This document shows, piece after piece, positions 49,984 through 56,514 of a stretch of 56,765 nt of DNA. Within the stretch, counting starts at the first letter, position 1, and each line of letters begins with the position of its first letter. The position numbers and the translations under genes are program-made. The notes under the pieces are model-generated. The model worked only from the letters and a program-made list of their open reading frames with translations, did no database searches and was not told where the DNA came from. The DNA is from Bacteroidales bacterium (GTDB taxonomy: Bacteria; Bacteroidota; Bacteroidia; Bacteroidales; GWA2-32-17): contig JAOAFV010000036.1 in the NCBI GenBank assembly GCA_026416095.1, positions 1-56,765 of the forward strand, written 5' to 3'.

Positions 49984-50865
49984 TTACTTTATATTAATAA
50001 CTTGGATAAAAATACCAGCCGAAATTTTTTTATTAAATTTATCGGAAATATAAAGTTCGCCTGAAATAAAATAATTGGGCTTATATATTGAGTTAATAAT
50101 ATTTTCGAGTACTACAACAGATATTCCAGGGGAATATACATTTAAGAGTAAGAAGTAATTTTCTTTTTCAATTATATTGTAAATGTATTTCATAAGCAAG
50201 TATAAATGTTGTTCTAATTTCCATATTTCTCCTTTAGGGCCATGTCCAAACGTTGGCGGATCTAAAATTACACCATTGTATTTATTGTTTCTTTTAATCT
50301 CGCGTTTAACAAATTTAATTGCATCATCAATGATCCACCTTATTGAATTAATATTGTTCAATTTAGCATTATAACATGCCTGCATTACAGCTGACTTTAA
50401 ACTATCAACATGAGTAACCGATGCTCCTGCTTTAGCACAAACAATGCTTGAAATACCTGTATAGGCAAAAAGGTTTAATATGTTTAACTTTTTATTGTAA
50501 TTTTTAATTATTTTCCATAAGAAATCCCAATTGTAGGCTTGTTCAGGGAAAATCCCAATATTTTTAAAAGAGCTTATTTTTAAGTTTATTTTTATCTTGT
50601 TTTTATCACTTCCATTTACCGGATATTCAATATTCCATGTATCAATAGCATGTTTTAACTGTCGCCATTTACCGGAATTAGATGTTTCGGGCACATACTC
50701 AAGTTGAGCAAGGGTATACCATTCCTTTTCTGAAAGAGATGGCTCCCATAAAGCTTGAGACTCTGGTCTGATAATAATAACATTATTAAATCGTTCTAAC
50801 TTTTTATAATTTCCAGAATCAATAAGTTCGTAATCTTTCCAGTATGATGGTATTGTATAAAACAC
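49984..50865 (-). CDS. RlmI-like class I SAM-dependent methyltransferase
   Basis: 293 residues, GTG start at 50865; no ATG is near and the -7 element lies 4 bp upstream, so the transcript may be nearly leaderless. Rossmann methyltransferase motifs: LNLFAYTGISSIVCAKAGA (motif I), the acidic SVTHVDSLKSAV, AIKFV and the catalytic-loop DPPTFGHGPKGEIWKLE. This fits the RlmI/RlmK-type group, which methylates rRNA, though here the N-terminal PUA domain is replaced by a short region. The substrate is unproven. Confidence 0.85.
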   Translation of the reverse strand: MFYTIPSYWKDYELIDSGNYKKLERFNNVIIIRPESQALWEPSLSEKEWYTLAQLEYVPETSNSGKWRQLKHAIDTWNIEYPVNGSDKNKIKINLKISSFKNIGIFPEQAYNWDFLWKIIKNYNKKLNILNLFAYTGISSIVCAKAGASVTHVDSLKSAVMQACYNAKLNNINSIRWIIDDAIKFVKREIKRNNKYNGVILDPPTFGHGPKGEIWKLEQHLYLLMKYIYNIIEKENYFLLLNVYSPGISVVVLENIINSIYKPNYFISGELYISDKFNKKISAGIFIQVINIK

Positions 50866-50869
50866 AAAT

Positions 50870-50878
50870 GCAAAGATA
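50870..50878 (-). promoter_or_regulatory. Promoter -7 element for the methyltransferase/EEP/murB run
   Basis: Minus strand TATCTTTGC fully matches TAnnTTTGC; a -33 TTG lies at 50897-50899, 18 bp upstream. The element is only 4 bp from the GTG start, so translation is probably leaderless or nearly so. Confidence 0.65.
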
Positions 50879-50913
50879 AATTATAATTCAAAAAAACAAT
50901 TCATAATTAATCT

Positions 50914-52896
50914 TCAAAAATTTATTAATACAAACATTATATCATCGGTTTGTTTAAATTTAGAAGTTAATTCTTCATATAAAGCGTTTATATGGTTCTT
51001 TTGATTTTCATAATCAGATTTTGAAAGATAGATTAGATTGTCGAAGAGTTTATCTAAATATTTATTTTTATAAACTTCTTTATATTGGTCTACAAAACCA
51101 TCGGTGTATAAAAACAATTTAGTGTTTTTTGAAATTTTAATTTTTTTTGTTAAAAAGGCATAGTCATCAGGTATTTCACCAATAGTTACTTTATCGCCTT
51201 CATGAACACTTACGGTATTATTTTCGACAGTGGCAAAAGAGAGGTTAGCCGAAGAAAAACTTAATTCATAAGAATTTAAATCGATTTTGATAATAACAAT
51301 CTCAAGGCCATCTTCACTTATTTTTGTTTCTTTATTATGTTTATTCCAATTTTTATTCATGAACGACAATATATCAGAAGGCAAAGTGTTTTCTGTAATG
51401 TGTATTGAAGCTTCATTTAATAGATTATAGGCCTTAATTGATACTAATGCCGAAGCAATACCATGACCAATAGAATCGGCAATAGAAATGAAAACAAAGT
51501 TACCTTTATGAAAAATCCACCCAAAATCGCCGCTAACAATAACTTTAGGTTTATTAAGTACTATTGATTGGGGGAACACTTCGCCCAAATGTTTTTCAAA
51601 AGGTATCATTATTTTTTGTAAAACAGAAGCATAATGAAGCCCATCCATAATCTGGTTATTAGATTGTTTTAGTTGAGTATTAACTACTTCAAGTTCTTTC
51701 AGCGCAGCATTAAGTTCTTTTGTTTTACTTGCTATTTCATTATATTGTTGTCTTAATTTTTTGTTGTAACGAGTTCGCTGAATATAAAAGTTAATAAGAG
51801 TAATAATCATTACAAAAAATATAAGAGAAGATACAATTAGGTAATTTCTTTCTGCTCTTATTTTTTGTTCTTTTTCTTTTAATATTTTTATTTCTTGTTC
51901 TTTATTTTTTAGTTCAAATTTATAATGTAATTGCAATAGTTGTTTTCTTGTTTCTTCGTTTTGTATTGTATCTGATACCTTTATATACAAATTTAAAAAG
52001 TTATATGCATCCTTATATTTATTAAGCTGTTGATTAACATTAGCAAGTTTGAAGTAATAGTCTCTTTTAGAGTTTATTGCTTGCAAACTATCAGCAATTT
52101 TCAGGGCAAGTGAATAATATTTTAAAGACTCTTTATAATTAGCCTGGTCTTTATAAATATCGCCTAACAAACTATAAATCAACGAAATATCTAAGTATGA
52201 CCTTAATTTTTGAGCTATTTTTAAAGCCCTGTTGAGAGAAATTTTAGCTTGAAGAAAATCTTTTTGTTTTATCGAAATAGAAGATATTCCAAGCAAACTA
52301 TACAAAATTCCTTCATAGTTTTTGTTTAGTTCTTCTATAGATAAGCTTCTACGATAACATCTATATGCATCTCTATAATTTTCGAGTAATTCATATATTT
52401 GACCTAACCGATATAAATTATTAAGTGTTAAATTAGATATTTCTCCTTCAATTTTTTCAAGAGACTTTTTCAAATAATATATTGCAAGGTTAAATTTTTT
52501 TTGCAAATAATACACATTTCCAATATTATAATATATCTCAGCAAGGTAATTTCTGTTTTTTAACGTTATTGCATAATCGTACGCTTTATTGAAACAATTA
52601 AGAGCACCAATATGATCTCCCAGAGTTAATTTCATAGAACCAATTAATATAAGATTTTTACAAATTCCTTCAAAATAATTAGACAGCTCGGCATATTCAA
52701 GCGCTTTGGAAGCCAATTCGTAAGCTTCCTTTAAATTAGTAGCTTTAATTCCATTTGCTATTTTATACAAATAATCACTTTTTTGTATATTGGTTTTTAA
52801 TTTTTGCACGTACATGCTAATCGAGTCACTTTTGGCTATCTTATTTAACCAAGAAAAAATAAAAAAAATTAATAATATTTTTCCCACTAACTTCAT
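50914..52896 (-). CDS. TPR-containing SpoIIE/PP2C-type serine phosphatase, membrane-anchored
   Basis: 660 residues. A signal peptide (~1-23) precedes TPR repeats (~40-320: NYLAEIYYNIGNVYYLQKKF, DISLIYSLLGDIYKDQANYK), a coiled coil and a membrane helix (~352-374: LIVSSLIFFVMIITLINFYI), another coiled coil (~378-415), then the PPM/SpoIIE domain (~425-660). Metal-binding aspartates are kept in VSGDFGW, ADSIGHGIASALVS and the C-terminal TDDIMFVLINF, with LYTDGFVDQYKE. TPRs would sit in the periplasm and the phosphatase in the cytoplasm. This resembles RsbU-type control of anti-sigma partners; none is adjacent. Confidence 0.9.
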   Translation of the reverse strand: MKLVGKILLIFFIFSWLNKIAKSDSISMYVQKLKTNIQKSDYLYKIANGIKATNLKEAYELASKALEYAELSNYFEGICKNLILIGSMKLTLGDHIGALNCFNKAYDYAITLKNRNYLAEIYYNIGNVYYLQKKFNLAIYYLKKSLEKIEGEISNLTLNNLYRLGQIYELLENYRDAYRCYRRSLSIEELNKNYEGILYSLLGISSISIKQKDFLQAKISLNRALKIAQKLRSYLDISLIYSLLGDIYKDQANYKESLKYYSLALKIADSLQAINSKRDYYFKLANVNQQLNKYKDAYNFLNLYIKVSDTIQNEETRKQLLQLHYKFELKNKEQEIKILKEKEQKIRAERNYLIVSSLIFFVMIITLINFYIQRTRYNKKLRQQYNEIASKTKELNAALKELEVVNTQLKQSNNQIMDGLHYASVLQKIMIPFEKHLGEVFPQSIVLNKPKVIVSGDFGWIFHKGNFVFISIADSIGHGIASALVSIKAYNLLNEASIHITENTLPSDILSFMNKNWNKHNKETKISEDGLEIVIIKIDLNSYELSFSSANLSFATVENNTVSVHEGDKVTIGEIPDDYAFLTKKIKISKNTKLFLYTDGFVDQYKEVYKNKYLDKLFDNLIYLSKSDYENQKNHINALYEELTSKFKQTDDIMFVLINF

Positions 52897-53572: not shown

Positions 53573-55024
53573 TCAAAGATCATTATAAATTCTGCTTTGC
53601 AATAAATCATTCAGGCCAGCAGGTTTATCTTGCAAAAGATCAATATTAAAATTAAACTCATACTTTAATACATACCTGAAAGTATTTACAGCCGAAATAT
53701 TGTTATAAAGCCATTTTTTATTTTCAAGGTAAATAGCATTAAAAATATATGTTCTACATTTTACAAAATCATTACGATTACCACCACTATAAAAAGGCCC
53801 ATGATCGGACTGAATAATTATAATCGGTTTTGTTATAGCAAACTTATATTTTTCTAATATATTATTAACAATTGCCATAATTTCTTTAACAACAAAAAGA
53901 GTTTGTTCGCCATAAGCATTTTTAGGATCCCACACGTTATCGGAAAAACTATTTACTGGCTTTAATTCCCCATTTCTATTAAACACAAAAGGCGGATGTG
54001 GACAAACAATATGTGCAAATAAAAATTTTGGGGATGACAATTTAAAATTAAAGTTTTTTATAATTTCAAACTGCTTTTTTATTCTAATGTAAGGAACTAT
54101 TCCTACTAAATCGTCTAATCTAAAAATTGTATTTTTTAAAATACCCCTTTCATAATCATTAAGAATATCATTATATAAATATTCATCGGTACAGACAAAA
54201 TTATTACTTATTGTATAACCAGATTTAACAACGTATATTTTGTACCCATTAGATTTAAAAATGTTAAAAACTAAATTATTATTTACATTAACTGATTCAC
54301 TGCCTTCAATGTATTTCATGTTCAATGTAGAATGTAATGCTTGTGGTGTAGAATAATAATTTGCAATAGAACTTGTACTTACAAAAAAACCTTTCTTCTC
54401 TAAGAACTTAACAAAAGTGTCGATGTTTATGTTATAATATTTTTTTAAAATATTTTGATTAGCAAAACCATCAATAATAATATAAAAAATATCGGGCTTT
54501 TTATTGCCTGGAAGTTTTATATTTATTTCTTTGCAGATACTTTTGTTAGTATTGTATTTATTTTTAAGAATACTTGTAATGCTATGTAAAATATTAAAAA
54601 TTATTAAAAAGATTAACAAAATATTTAACCATCGCGTTAAATTGTAAAAGTTATATTTTGAATATTTAACGAAAAAGTAAATAATTACACAAAACACAAA
54701 ATAAAATATTATAAGATACCTATGAATATTTGAAAATGGCCAAATATTAAGATAGTATAAGTATTCAATATAATCGTAAAAAAAACCATAAAATGAAAGT
54801 AAAAACAAAAAAAGAGTTACGAAAATACCAGCTTTCAAGGAGTTTTTATCAAAAACATAATAAGAAATACAAAATGCTAATACACTAACTAATACAGAGA
54901 AAACAAGTGGTCGTATAAGCATTTCTACTGTAAGAAGGTGAGCATTTTGTGAATACAAAAAAAGAGCTAGGTAAGGTAATATTAGAAAACTATGTATTGG
55001 GGTTAATGTTAGAATTTTTTTCAT
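53573..55024 (-). CDS. Alkaline-phosphatase-superfamily (sulfatase-like) membrane enzyme
   Basis: 483 residues. About five membrane helices (~10-155) precede a large sulfatase/phosphoethanolamine-transferase-like domain outside the membrane (~175-483). Its metal site is suggested by KPDIFYIIIDGFANQNILKK near the start of the domain, HIVCPHPPFVFN and IIIQSDHGPFYSGG near the end. The usual catalytic Thr/Cys region (ANYYSTPQALHSTLNMKY) is present in modified form. Such enzymes move phospho-groups onto glycans or lipids, or cleave sulfate. It overlaps the methyltransferase gene by 35 bp and is the third gene of the module that starts with the 51-residue membrane protein. Confidence 0.85.
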   Translation of the reverse strand: MKKILTLTPIHSFLILPYLALFLYSQNAHLLTVEMLIRPLVFSVLVSVLAFCISYYVFDKNSLKAGIFVTLFLFLLSFYGFFYDYIEYLYYLNIWPFSNIHRYLIIFYFVFCVIIYFFVKYSKYNFYNLTRWLNILLIFLIIFNILHSITSILKNKYNTNKSICKEINIKLPGNKKPDIFYIIIDGFANQNILKKYYNINIDTFVKFLEKKGFFVSTSSIANYYSTPQALHSTLNMKYIEGSESVNVNNNLVFNIFKSNGYKIYVVKSGYTISNNFVCTDEYLYNDILNDYERGILKNTIFRLDDLVGIVPYIRIKKQFEIIKNFNFKLSSPKFLFAHIVCPHPPFVFNRNGELKPVNSFSDNVWDPKNAYGEQTLFVVKEIMAIVNNILEKYKFAITKPIIIIQSDHGPFYSGGNRNDFVKCRTYIFNAIYLENKKWLYNNISAVNTFRYVLKYEFNFNIDLLQDKPAGLNDLLQSRIYNDL

Positions 55025-56381
55025 TTCTTATCATATTGTAGATAATTCTTTCTGAATTTGTTAACTTTTTGCTATCGACTATATTAAAATATTTGCTAAA
55101 AATAGATAAAAATTCATTTTCATTATAATCATTGTAAATGTCTTTCTTATTATAAAGTAATTTTTTAACTTGAATATCGTTTTTAGGAACAAATTCTATA
55201 ATCAGTTGCTTACTTAATAGAGCAAAAAGCTGTGCTATATAAGTTAACGGAATATTGTAAGTAATTCTTAAATGATGAATTATAGCTAATGCCAAAGAAA
55301 CATTATTTGTGTTAATTCGTGTTAAAAAACTTTTTCTTTCAAAATTTGCCCAACCTACAGAAGGACTTGGATTAGTAATATCCAACACTAAGGGCAAAAC
55401 ATTAGTAATTGGTTTAATATTCTGAAATAAGTTGTTAATTACATATGGATCGTTATCTATGGCAACATAATAATTAAATTTATTAAAAAAGTTTTTTATA
55501 AAATAGCATTCATTGCTACCTATATCTAAAACTCTGTAGTTACCTATGTTAGAAATACTTTGCAAAACAAAATTAGTTTTTTCATTTCTCGAAGTTGAAT
55601 CGTATGGGCAATCTAAATAATATTTATTCCATTTTGAATTTCTACAAATACTTAAACATTCAATTGATTCATATAAATGTTCAATTATATTTAACATTTT
55701 TTTCTTAGAGATAAAAATAGCTTGGGTAGGTATAAAATATTTTTTATTTGCATTTTTAATAGCTTTTGAATGTAGCACAACGTGTATTAAAGTAAGCAAG
55801 TTAAAATTTGATCTAAAAGGCAATATTTTTTTGGCAATCATCAATGGTATGCCATCTAAGAAATAAATAAGCCATTTCGAAAAATGAATATCTCGGTACT
55901 TCATTAGTAGTAATGGTACAATAAAATGTTCACAAAACTGCTTATAAGCTTTCCACGGTTGTCCTTCTTCATAAATTTCAAATGAAGTGGTATCGATAAA
56001 AATTGGCCTTGTTCCTAGGAATTGAACATTATAAGCACTAGCATCTTTTAACGAAAATCCATTATTTATAGCTTCATGTTGAATTTCAAGAGTTAGTAAT
56101 GCTGCTTCTTTAATCTGATTAAAAGACCACTCATAGGGGTACGATATAAAAGGTATCTTACTATGTTTTAAAACAATAGATTTCTCGTTGTGCGATATTT
56201 CTTCATGAAAAATAAGAAGTTCTTTTTTTATCAGCCTTTCAATAAAACCATTTTTTTTTAAAAGTTTATAAGTTTCAAAGTATGAAGGATAAATTTTTCT
56301 AAATACATTATTATTTTGTTCATAGATTTGGCCATTTGGATCTTTAAACGACCCCTTTTCAATAAAGTGATCTTCTATCAT
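54990..56381 (-). CDS. Kinase-like/class I SAM methyltransferase fusion (NoeA-like)
   Basis: 463 residues from the ATG at 56381 (MIEDHFIEKGSFKDPNGQIY); the longer frame from a TTG at 56441 is rejected because it overlaps a small gene. The N-terminal half contains GFSLKDASAYNVQFLGTRPI then FIDTTSFE, like the catalytic loop (D....N) and metal-binding Asp of the protein-kinase/APH fold. The C-terminal half (~295-463) is a Rossmann methyltransferase, YRVLDIGSNECYFIKNFF with the acidic YVAIDNDPYVI and ALAIIHHLRI. NoeA-like proteins occur in polysaccharide and nodulation loci; the substrate is unknown. It overlaps both neighbours, indicating tight coupling. Confidence 0.82.
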   Translation of the reverse strand: MIEDHFIEKGSFKDPNGQIYEQNNNVFRKIYPSYFETYKLLKKNGFIERLIKKELLIFHEEISHNEKSIVLKHSKIPFISYPYEWSFNQIKEAALLTLEIQHEAINNGFSLKDASAYNVQFLGTRPIFIDTTSFEIYEEGQPWKAYKQFCEHFIVPLLLMKYRDIHFSKWLIYFLDGIPLMIAKKILPFRSNFNLLTLIHVVLHSKAIKNANKKYFIPTQAIFISKKKMLNIIEHLYESIECLSICRNSKWNKYYLDCPYDSTSRNEKTNFVLQSISNIGNYRVLDIGSNECYFIKNFFNKFNYYVAIDNDPYVINNLFQNIKPITNVLPLVLDITNPSPSVGWANFERKSFLTRINTNNVSLALAIIHHLRITYNIPLTYIAQLFALLSKQLIIEFVPKNDIQVKKLLYNKKDIYNDYNENEFLSIFSKYFNIVDSKKLTNSERIIYNMIRNEKNSNINPNT

Positions 56382-56514
56382 TATTTTTATCTTTTTTCCA
56401 GAAAGCAATAAATCTCCATATTCTCTTAAAAAAAACAACAATTGTAACCATTGCAGCTACTATTAACTGAAACAACAAACTTCCATTCCCAGGGTCTATA
56501 TACAACAGATTCAT
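56359..56514 (-). CDS. Small YIDPGTGS-type membrane protein
   Basis: 51 residues. The start MNLLYIDPGNGSLLFQLIVA is followed by one membrane helix (AAMVTIVVFF) and a basic, aromatic tail (KRIWRFIAFW, then KKDKNN). The YIDPG(N/T)GS opening is characteristic of a small-protein family that I recall being encoded beside sulfatase-like and polysaccharide genes. It overlaps the methyltransferase start by 23 bp, so the two are probably translated together. It is short enough to be missed by gene finders. The helix-plus-basic-tail form suggests an inner-membrane adaptor. Confidence 0.72.
   Translation of the reverse strand: MNLLYIDPGNGSLLFQLIVAAMVTIVVFFKRIWRFIAFWKKDKNNDRRSLY

Follow-up and report, generated by a model that had tools for sequence, protein, structure and literature searches.

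The window analysed here, a stretch of 56,765 nucleotides (positions 1 to 56,765 of contig JAOAFV010000036.1, assembly GCA_026416095.1) from a Bacteroidales bacterium, carries close to its end three overlapping genes for a small membrane protein (SM), a NoeA-family kinase-methyltransferase (KMT) and a NoeB-like membrane enzyme with an alkaline-phosphatase fold (AP; Table 1). All three frames and both overlaps had been proposed in an earlier, sequence-only reading and were confirmed at their coordinates; an alternative upstream TTG start would extend the KMT to 483 residues. The contig end at 56765 limits the readable sequence upstream of the cassette. None of the three window proteins reached the curated Pfam or NCBIfam cut-offs.

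The small frame is selected as a protein, in line with the earlier reading. It is found in the same place in both same-genus relatives (L065 and L066). Between these two copies, 3, 3 and 24 differences fall on the first, second and third codon positions, and among 48 codons 21 changed synonymously and 6 non-synonymously, a sign of purifying selection. In contrast, the fixed stoichiometry that had been read from the tight overlaps was dropped, because their lengths vary among the relatives (L065 has 8 and 4 bp, L066 has 11 and 4 bp and the window 23 and 35 bp); the overlaps rather suggest translational coupling. Downstream of AP, at window positions 49984-52896, an S-adenosylmethionine (SAM) methyltransferase and a TPR-SpoIIE protein are encoded.

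Table 1. Genes, overlaps and domains of the three-gene locus, and the loci with the related sulfotransferase cassette
Feature	Coordinates	Strand	Details
SM, small single-pass membrane protein, 51 aa	56359-56514	minus	layout MNLL-YIDPGNGS-LLFQ-transmembrane helix-basic tail; predicted N-outside
KMT (P0001), NoeA-family kinase-methyltransferase, 463 aa from ATG	54990-56381	minus	
AP (P0003), NoeB-like membrane enzyme, 483 aa	53573-55024	minus	alkaline-phosphatase fold
SM/KMT frame overlap, 23 bp	56359-56381	minus	
KMT/AP frame overlap, 35 bp	54990-55024	minus	
KMT, kinase-like N-terminal domain			R28, D113, N118, D130
KMT, class I methyltransferase C-terminal domain			D286, G288, N290, D309, H369-H370, R445
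AP, about 5 N-terminal helices and alkaline-phosphatase-fold domain, predicted periplasmic			D185, T226, H338, H343, D407, H408
Arylsulfotransferase / YxGPG small protein / sulfotransferase cassette	L139:4587-8328; L140:4045-7221; L179:1419-4588; L194-L198		

A three-gene unit across several phyla

Comparison of 41 KMT neighbourhoods (37 genome loci and four plasmid loci) from the window's phylum, Omnitrophota, Pseudomonadota, a deltaproteobacterium, Planctomycetota and Gemmatimonadota revealed SM in 38, AP in 35 and all three genes in 34 of them. The three genes form one conserved unit across several phyla, despite many rearrangements. This bears out two statements of the sequence-only reading, namely that the genes co-occur in other genomes and that the small protein stands beside such enzymes in other bacteria. 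Left out of the sample were L112 and L115, which are the same stretches as L002 and L005, and L103, in which the KMT is cut by the contig end and no SM or AP was seen; a Novosphingobium plasmid record with KMT also stands outside the count. The complete trios occur in seven gene orders: SM-KMT-AP dominates (24 loci), followed by SM-AP-KMT (L107, L108, L110) and AP-SM-KMT (L002, L096, L102) with three loci each, while AP-KMT-SM (L118) and SM-AP-KMT-AP (L054) were found once. Two loci have divergent arms (L094 and L097), and L094 carries two SM genes on opposite strands, one leading AP and one leading KMT. The labels of SM and AP at these loci come from iterated profiles. The un-iterated SM profile already finds every SM counted in the 37 genome loci (weakest L058, 1.9e-3), and the un-iterated AP profile misses some of the labelled AP frames (e.g. 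L059, L061, L099, L104, L107, L108, L110).

SM is missing beside three KMT genes (L003, L064, L105) and AP beside six (L005, L055, L064, L098, L105, L111). The contig of L005 stops 30 codons into an AP-like frame, the genomes of L055 and L098 hold a strong AP relative elsewhere (G042, E 7e-105; G457, E 2e-103), and the genome of L003, which has a KMT-AP pair without SM, encodes SM on another contig (G405, E 1.5e-13). The genomes with the divergent KMT genes L064 and L105 (G231, G502) gave neither an SM (E<=0.01) nor an AP match (E<=1e-15).

On the KMT tree with its 41 rows, the arrangement, coded in ten states with incomplete units included, needed about 14 changes, a value that is approximate because the tree was built quickly, contains long branches (L064, L111, L110, L062, L105, L058) and leaves 16 of 38 inner branches open. 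The phylum labels needed 11 changes versus a minimum of 5, and the well-supported branches alone force at least two changes for the window's phylum (with L003 and L005) and at least three for Omnitrophota. Hence, the unit has been rearranged many times and was probably transferred between lineages, and its genes still stay together.

The KMT profile (7 rows) matched in 14 of 395 genomes of the window's phylum (presumably Bacteroidota), in 13 of 193 from the phylum of the Omnitrophica locus L004 and in 7 of 299 from that of the alphaproteobacterial locus L002; within the window's family KMT was found in 3 of 10 genomes, the window's own included. An SM profile of 5 rows, only one of which (the window's own) stems from the 395-genome set, matched at E<=1e-4 in 12 of these genomes from 12 genera, all inside the 14 KMT genomes. 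With a 37-row SM profile, which was built from the same loci and is therefore partly circular, SM was found in 13 of the 14 KMT genomes and in five further ones (G383, G208, G204, G193, G382). The matches in G193 and G382 were rejected, since they lie inside 585-aa frames, and the one in G193 (L141) reads as a transporter-like protein. Six genomes with weak matches (E 0.0046-0.0099) were excluded from the SM count. These scans scored at most 4 (KMT), 15 (5-row SM) or 13 (37-row SM) first-pass candidates per genome, so absences carry lower confidence. The phage collection gave no match to the window KMT at 1e-5.

Some loci show other surroundings. An SM-AP pair without KMT adjoins a gene for a phospholipase-D-family protein (L114:790-3740), and the same genome also has SM and KMT together at another place (L115), on a contig that stops shortly after an AP-like frame has begun. 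A lone SM (L113:45-4060) is flanked by a glycosyltransferase-2-like gene, a PAP2-like phosphatase and a large membrane protein for which Pfam gave no match; the first two names are readings of the sequence. In L106 (2360-11672) the trio is placed between genes for an AMP-binding enzyme and a PEP-mutase-family protein and the polysaccharide genes Polysacc_synt_2 and DegT aminotransferase, which makes a link to phosphonate chemistry possible.

The unit also turns up among nodulation genes. The window KMT is similar to NoeA of S. meliloti over its full length (33.1% identity, 96% of the query, E 2e-73 in tblastn), in agreement with the earlier label NoeA-like. Searching plasmids by tblastn with the window KMT and with a proteobacterial KMT returned 65 records each, of which 61 were rhizobial and several annotated as noeA. 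In the pSymA record CP140953.1 the gene order is nodL, a 71-aa "hypothetical protein", noeA and noeB, and the 71-aa protein directly before noeA reads ...PAHA-YLDPGTGSMLVQG..., thus showing the motif YLDPGTGS. This small protein matched in 61 records with genus counts of 57, 3 and 1, which, as a comparison of totals, equal those of the rhizobial noeA records. Moreover, AP and NoeB are related (hhalign probability 99.2, E 1.3e-19). With a NoeA-like KMT, a NoeB-related AP and a YLDPGTGS gene before noeA, the nodL-noeA-noeB host-range operon is, judged by sequence, the same three-gene unit including the small gene.

The genes noeA and noeB were reportedly described as host-range nodulation genes by Ardourel et al. 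in 1995. The S. meliloti operon is flavonoid-inducible and follows nodL, and NoeA and NoeB are hypothesised to modify Nod factors (PMC9048898). One strain that failed with 17 of 27 M. truncatula genotypes was reported to have a truncated noeA (PMC4053727), and noeA orthologs also occur in non-Medicago strains (PMC3899959). NoeA was published as a kinase-methyltransferase together with the alkaline-phosphatase fold of NoeB, and the neighbourhood of Lani_1194/NoeA, with Lani_1193 and Lani_1195 as neighbours, was reported as conserved (65% and 38% of 816); the kinase-methyltransferase and its alkaline-phosphatase-fold neighbour were proposed as a possible conserved functional unit (PMC9758233). 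Hence, the statement that no role had been described for the set holds insofar as the roles are only hypothesised, but it overlooked the nodulation genes and the unit proposed in that study. The Lani_1194/NoeA family shares the kinase-methyltransferase architecture and the AP-fold neighbour with the window's unit, whereas the accessible part of PMC9758233 names no small protein with a Tyr motif; Lani_1193, which in the literature was found named only there, could be SM or something else. The core KMT-AP pair is therefore already known. For the small protein with its invariant Tyr and for the parallel sulfation cassette dealt with below, no description was found in the literature searched, though Lani_1193 could represent SM.

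The two enzymes and the small protein

The kinase residues R28, D113, N118 and D130 of KMT are invariant among 37 members, and so are D286, N290, H369, H370, E396 and R445 in the methyltransferase half. Matched by motif and order, D113, N118 and D130 correspond to D166, N171 and D184 of PKA, with R28 standing for K72 (family definition in PMC9758233). The VIA structure comparison of the AF2 model (pLDDT 92.8) was filled by the methyltransferase half, with Z values of 14.8-17.4 among 50 listed matches that mostly cover model residues about 247-455. The Pfam family Methyltransf_23 was detected in 20 of 37 members at E<=0.01, the window KMT not being among them. The invariant kinase residues and the class I methyltransferase domain in the model support the kinase/methyltransferase fusion suggested by the sequence-only reading.

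Near the top of the VIA list for KMT are BCDIN3D and the methylphosphate capping enzyme MePCE, both of which methylate RNA 5' phosphates; NodS comes first, however, and matches no more than one Z unit apart count as ties. Against PDB sequences, the KMT profile scored best with WbdD (1.4e-7; 1e-7 with the methyltransferase half alone), and single-sequence PDB searches gave nothing useful. The invariant pair H369-H370 falls on H132-H133 of WbdD in the hidden Markov model alignment, with residues counted along the alignment, and the invariant R445 is, by the VIA range, roughly where a counterpart of R203, the third phosphate-binding residue of WbdD, would be expected. The WbdD variants H132A, H133A and R203A kept kinase but lost methyltransferase activity, and the residues were credited with handling the phosphate nucleophile (PMC3482155). 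Like KMT, WbdD from E. coli O9a unites kinase and methyltransferase in one chain with a His-His phosphate methyltransferase site, and its methyl phosphate product serves as our working model for KMT. The proteins differ in that the methyltransferase of WbdD (match 64-179) precedes its kinase (weak match 356-396), which is the reverse of KMT, and in that the accessible WbdD source describes no SM or AP partner. The divergent KMT genes in L064 (4657-8066) and L105 (2150-5094) adjoin Wzt-like and Wzx-like genes; these relatives are perhaps WbdD-like cytosolic chain modifiers.

For the AP model (pLDDT 88.3), EptA, MCR-1 and EptC filled the first four Foldseek rows, with sulfatases after them. In VIA, EptC (6a82_B) was found with Z 21.8 (root-mean-square deviation 3.8, 279 aligned) and MCR-1 (6li4_A) with Z 21.2 (3.8, 276 aligned), whereas LtaP, LtaS and sulfatases ranked about one Z unit below EptC, MCR-1 and YejM/PbgA. 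Both comparisons place AP in the phosphatase superfamily, as had been claimed. At the nucleophile column (T226) Thr occurs in 31 and Ser in 2 of 33 AP sequences; D407-H408 is kept in all 33 and D185 in 32. HMMER places this Thr on the formylglycine Cys of sulfatases. The sulfatase signature C/S-x-P-x-R was found neither in the window AP nor at the nucleophile stretch of the 33 sequences, and in three of them (L102, L108, L099) the pattern occurs elsewhere. With Thr or Ser at the nucleophile column in all 33, the sulfatase reading was set aside. From the former label "sulfatase-like membrane enzyme", the membrane enzyme with a related fold remains, but probably not the sulfatase. The nucleophile and the missing signature make AP more like a phospho-group transferase, and hence favour a putative activity of this type over a formylglycine sulfatase. 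EptA, EptC, MCR-1 and LtaS share with AP the N-terminal helices followed by the AP-fold domain with Thr at the nucleophile position, although identities in the VIA rows are only 8-16%. EptA and LtaS use phospholipid donors.

In SM (n=37), the Tyr and Asp of the motif YxDPGxGS and a Gln nine residues past the Asp are invariant, and the motif Pro is kept in 34. An N-terminal hydrophobic segment is present in 22 sequences, 19 of which show a signal-peptidase-like site exactly before the Tyr. As controls, such sites were found 0 times at one residue on either side, 9 times two residues earlier (AxAYA) and 17 times at +7 and +8, the latter arising from the GSGS stretch itself. In the other 15 proteins the Tyr is preceded by only 4-10 residues (nine proteins) or by 17-74 (six proteins); the latter numbers refer to the longest frame, whose true start is uncertain. 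Hence, from the cleavage site or the short N-terminal tail, the part outside the membrane is predicted to begin with the Tyr or very close to it. The tail carries a net positive charge in 35 of 37 members and is poorly conserved. No Pfam family was detected in more than one of the 37 proteins (E<=0.01), and the motif YIDPGTGS was absent from the literature searched, while YIDPG, YLDPGTGS and YIDPGSGS occurred only in one paper that is unrelated in its accessible part.

In this regard the acyl-Tyr shuttles DltB/DltX/DltD and PatA/PatB are of interest, where a membrane microprotein or motif with an invariant outer Tyr connects the donor in the cytosol with a transferase outside the cytoplasm (PMC12148441). 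SM resembles DltX as a small, predicted single-pass protein with an outer Tyr in 37 of 37 sequences. It differs by the N-terminal YxDPGxGS in place of the C-terminal FxYxxF, which SM does not show, and by its partners, which are a kinase-methyltransferase and an AP-fold enzyme; MBOAT and SGNH partners as in the DltX system are not part of the SM cassette.

A parallel sulfotransferase cassette

The SM-profile matches in G383, G208 and G204 sit between arylsulfotransferase (ASST) and sulfotransferase genes, the enzymes being named by Pfam (L139, L140) or phmmer (L179, G204); in L139 an adenylylsulfate (APS) kinase gene is next to this sister cassette. With the L139 ASST as query, tblastn found five plasmid records, all from alphaproteobacteria, and all five carry a gene for a 76-85-aa small protein with AxA|Y-(V/I)-GPG and a sulfotransferase alongside. 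These records were found by the ASST alone, while L139 and L140 came from SM matches and hence represent no blind test. The L139 small protein itself gave no tblastn match in plasmids at 0.01. In a scan for arylsulfotransferases in the window's phylum, PF14269 was present in 52 of 267 genomes, and one of 20 listed loci that were opened (19 genomes) carried the sister cassette (L179 in G204). L178 and L180 contain related ASST genes without a YxGPG gene, and in the other 17 opened loci phmmer detected nothing similar to the ASST of L139 or L140 at 1e-3. The sister cassette is thus rare within the window's phylum. No account of a small membrane protein with an arylsulfotransferase was found in the literature searched. 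In L194 (5568-5978) and L198 (5530-5901), small membrane proteins before the sulfotransferase have an SDxWKE stretch as in the N-terminus of the long L139 sulfotransferase, and by eye they look as if they were its split-off N-terminal domain. Taken together, two unrelated enzyme pairs appear to share a Tyr-first microprotein and one layout, in which a presumably cytosolic donor enzyme is followed by the microprotein and a presumably periplasmic transferase.

A possible hand-over of phosphate groups

In the reading we lean to, with somewhat less than even confidence, a phosphate-based group (most likely methyl phosphate) is exported by the unit across the inner membrane and placed on a glycan there, and SM acts either as a carrier through its Tyr or as a coupler. 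The cytosolic KMT would use ATP in its kinase half to form a phosphate ester and SAM in its methyltransferase half to methylate this phosphate, in the manner of WbdD on O-antigen. The membrane-anchored AP with its periplasmic catalytic domain would then transfer the phosphoryl group via the Thr nucleophile to an exported or lipid-linked glycan, a step modelled on EptA and LtaS with their phospholipid donors. SM would be the hand-over part, with the invariant Tyr at the outer face and the basic tail in the cytosol, serving AP as carrier with the group on Tyr, much as DltX and PatA carry an acyl group on theirs, or coupling KMT to AP. The sister microprotein with AxA|Y-x-GPG, a sulfotransferase of the 3'-phosphoadenylylsulfate (PAPS) type and the arylsulfotransferase could be the sulfate version of this design.

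Several points weigh against this proposal. A His-His pair is also found outside the phosphate methyltransferases: NodS and RebM have two His or two Tyr at the same place (PMC3482155), and NodS is the first entry of the VIA list. The profile of the kinase half found no match in PDB at E<=5. For AP, the VIA values of EptC and MCR-1 (Z 21-22), YejM/PbgA (21) and sulfatases (about 20) are all close, so that structure leaves the chemistry unsettled, and sulfatases head its sequence-profile list. The kinship of SM and the YxGPG family rests on short hydrophobic sequences (hhalign probability 97.3), and in the genome of L111 (G724) SM and KMT occur without any AP relative at E<=1e-15. If SM is a carrier, its Tyr would be on the outer side, whereas the kinase is in the cytosol, and the cassette has no MBOAT-like channel; the group would then need to be put on SM ahead of translocation or to pass the membrane in a way not apparent from the cassette. 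What comparison shows is that the three genes form one unit; the mechanism beyond this is inferred.

Close to what the sequence-only reading had suggested, SM could also act as a tether without chemistry of its own, whose outer motif docks AP and whose basic tail docks KMT, such that a lipid-linked substrate modified by KMT is channelled to AP. With its motif predicted outside and a tail predicted in the cytosol that is positive in 35 of 37, SM suits this role, though a carrier role fits the topology as well, and SM can lead AP and KMT separately, as in L094 and in the SM-AP pair of L114 without KMT. However, the tail is the poorly conserved part, while the invariant outer Tyr and Asp fit an active-site role better, and this Tyr is found again in the sulfotransferase cassette, whose other proteins are unrelated. 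We regard the tether as rather improbable, though still a serious candidate. It is doubtful that KMT makes a lipid-linked (methyl)phosphate that an oligomeric SM helps to flip and AP uses in the manner of GtrA/GtrB/Gtr. Enzymes of the EptA/LtaS type do use lipid donors. Moreover, the labour would be split as in the published three-component periplasmic sugar addition (PMC11127046), but SM has one predicted transmembrane helix, unlike the SMR or MATE flippases described there, and no feature of KMT suggests a lipid substrate.

Two independent steps, in which KMT modifies a cytosolic glycan and AP, with SM as its subunit, separately adds phosphoethanolamine or phosphoglycerol from a phospholipid, would agree with the resemblance of the AP fold to phospholipid-using transferases and with SM-AP occurring without an adjoining KMT (L114). 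Nevertheless, SM is linked to KMT as tightly as AP is, and the KMT genomes G231 and G502, which lack SM, also lack AP at the thresholds given above. We consider this explanation unlikely. A chance or housekeeping neighbourhood, with unlinked overlapping frames or an untranslated small frame, could be considered for the window taken alone; it is refuted, to a very small residual probability, by the trio being kept with shuffled order in several phyla and by the purifying selection on the SM frame.

In sum, an unnamed small gene turns up inside the nodL-noeA-noeB operon, and the same unit exists in several phyla. If the proposed hand-over of a phosphate-based group is true, bacteria would decorate their exported glycans by analogues of the acyl-Tyr shuttle, one for phosphate and a parallel one for sulfate. 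A broader and speculative, on balance improbable, extension would be a general class of three-part tyrosine-shuttle cassettes for inorganic groups, in which a Tyr-first membrane microprotein (YxDPGxGS or YxGPG) takes methyl phosphate, phosphate or sulfate, made in the cytosol with ATP/SAM or PAPS. As an aryl ester, the group would then be offered to a transferase in the periplasm, either one with the AP fold or an arylsulfotransferase. Arylsulfotransferases take sulfate from phenolic donors (PMC11468790). If such a class exists, it would give these enzymes a cell-made donor and would explain the role of NoeA and NoeB.

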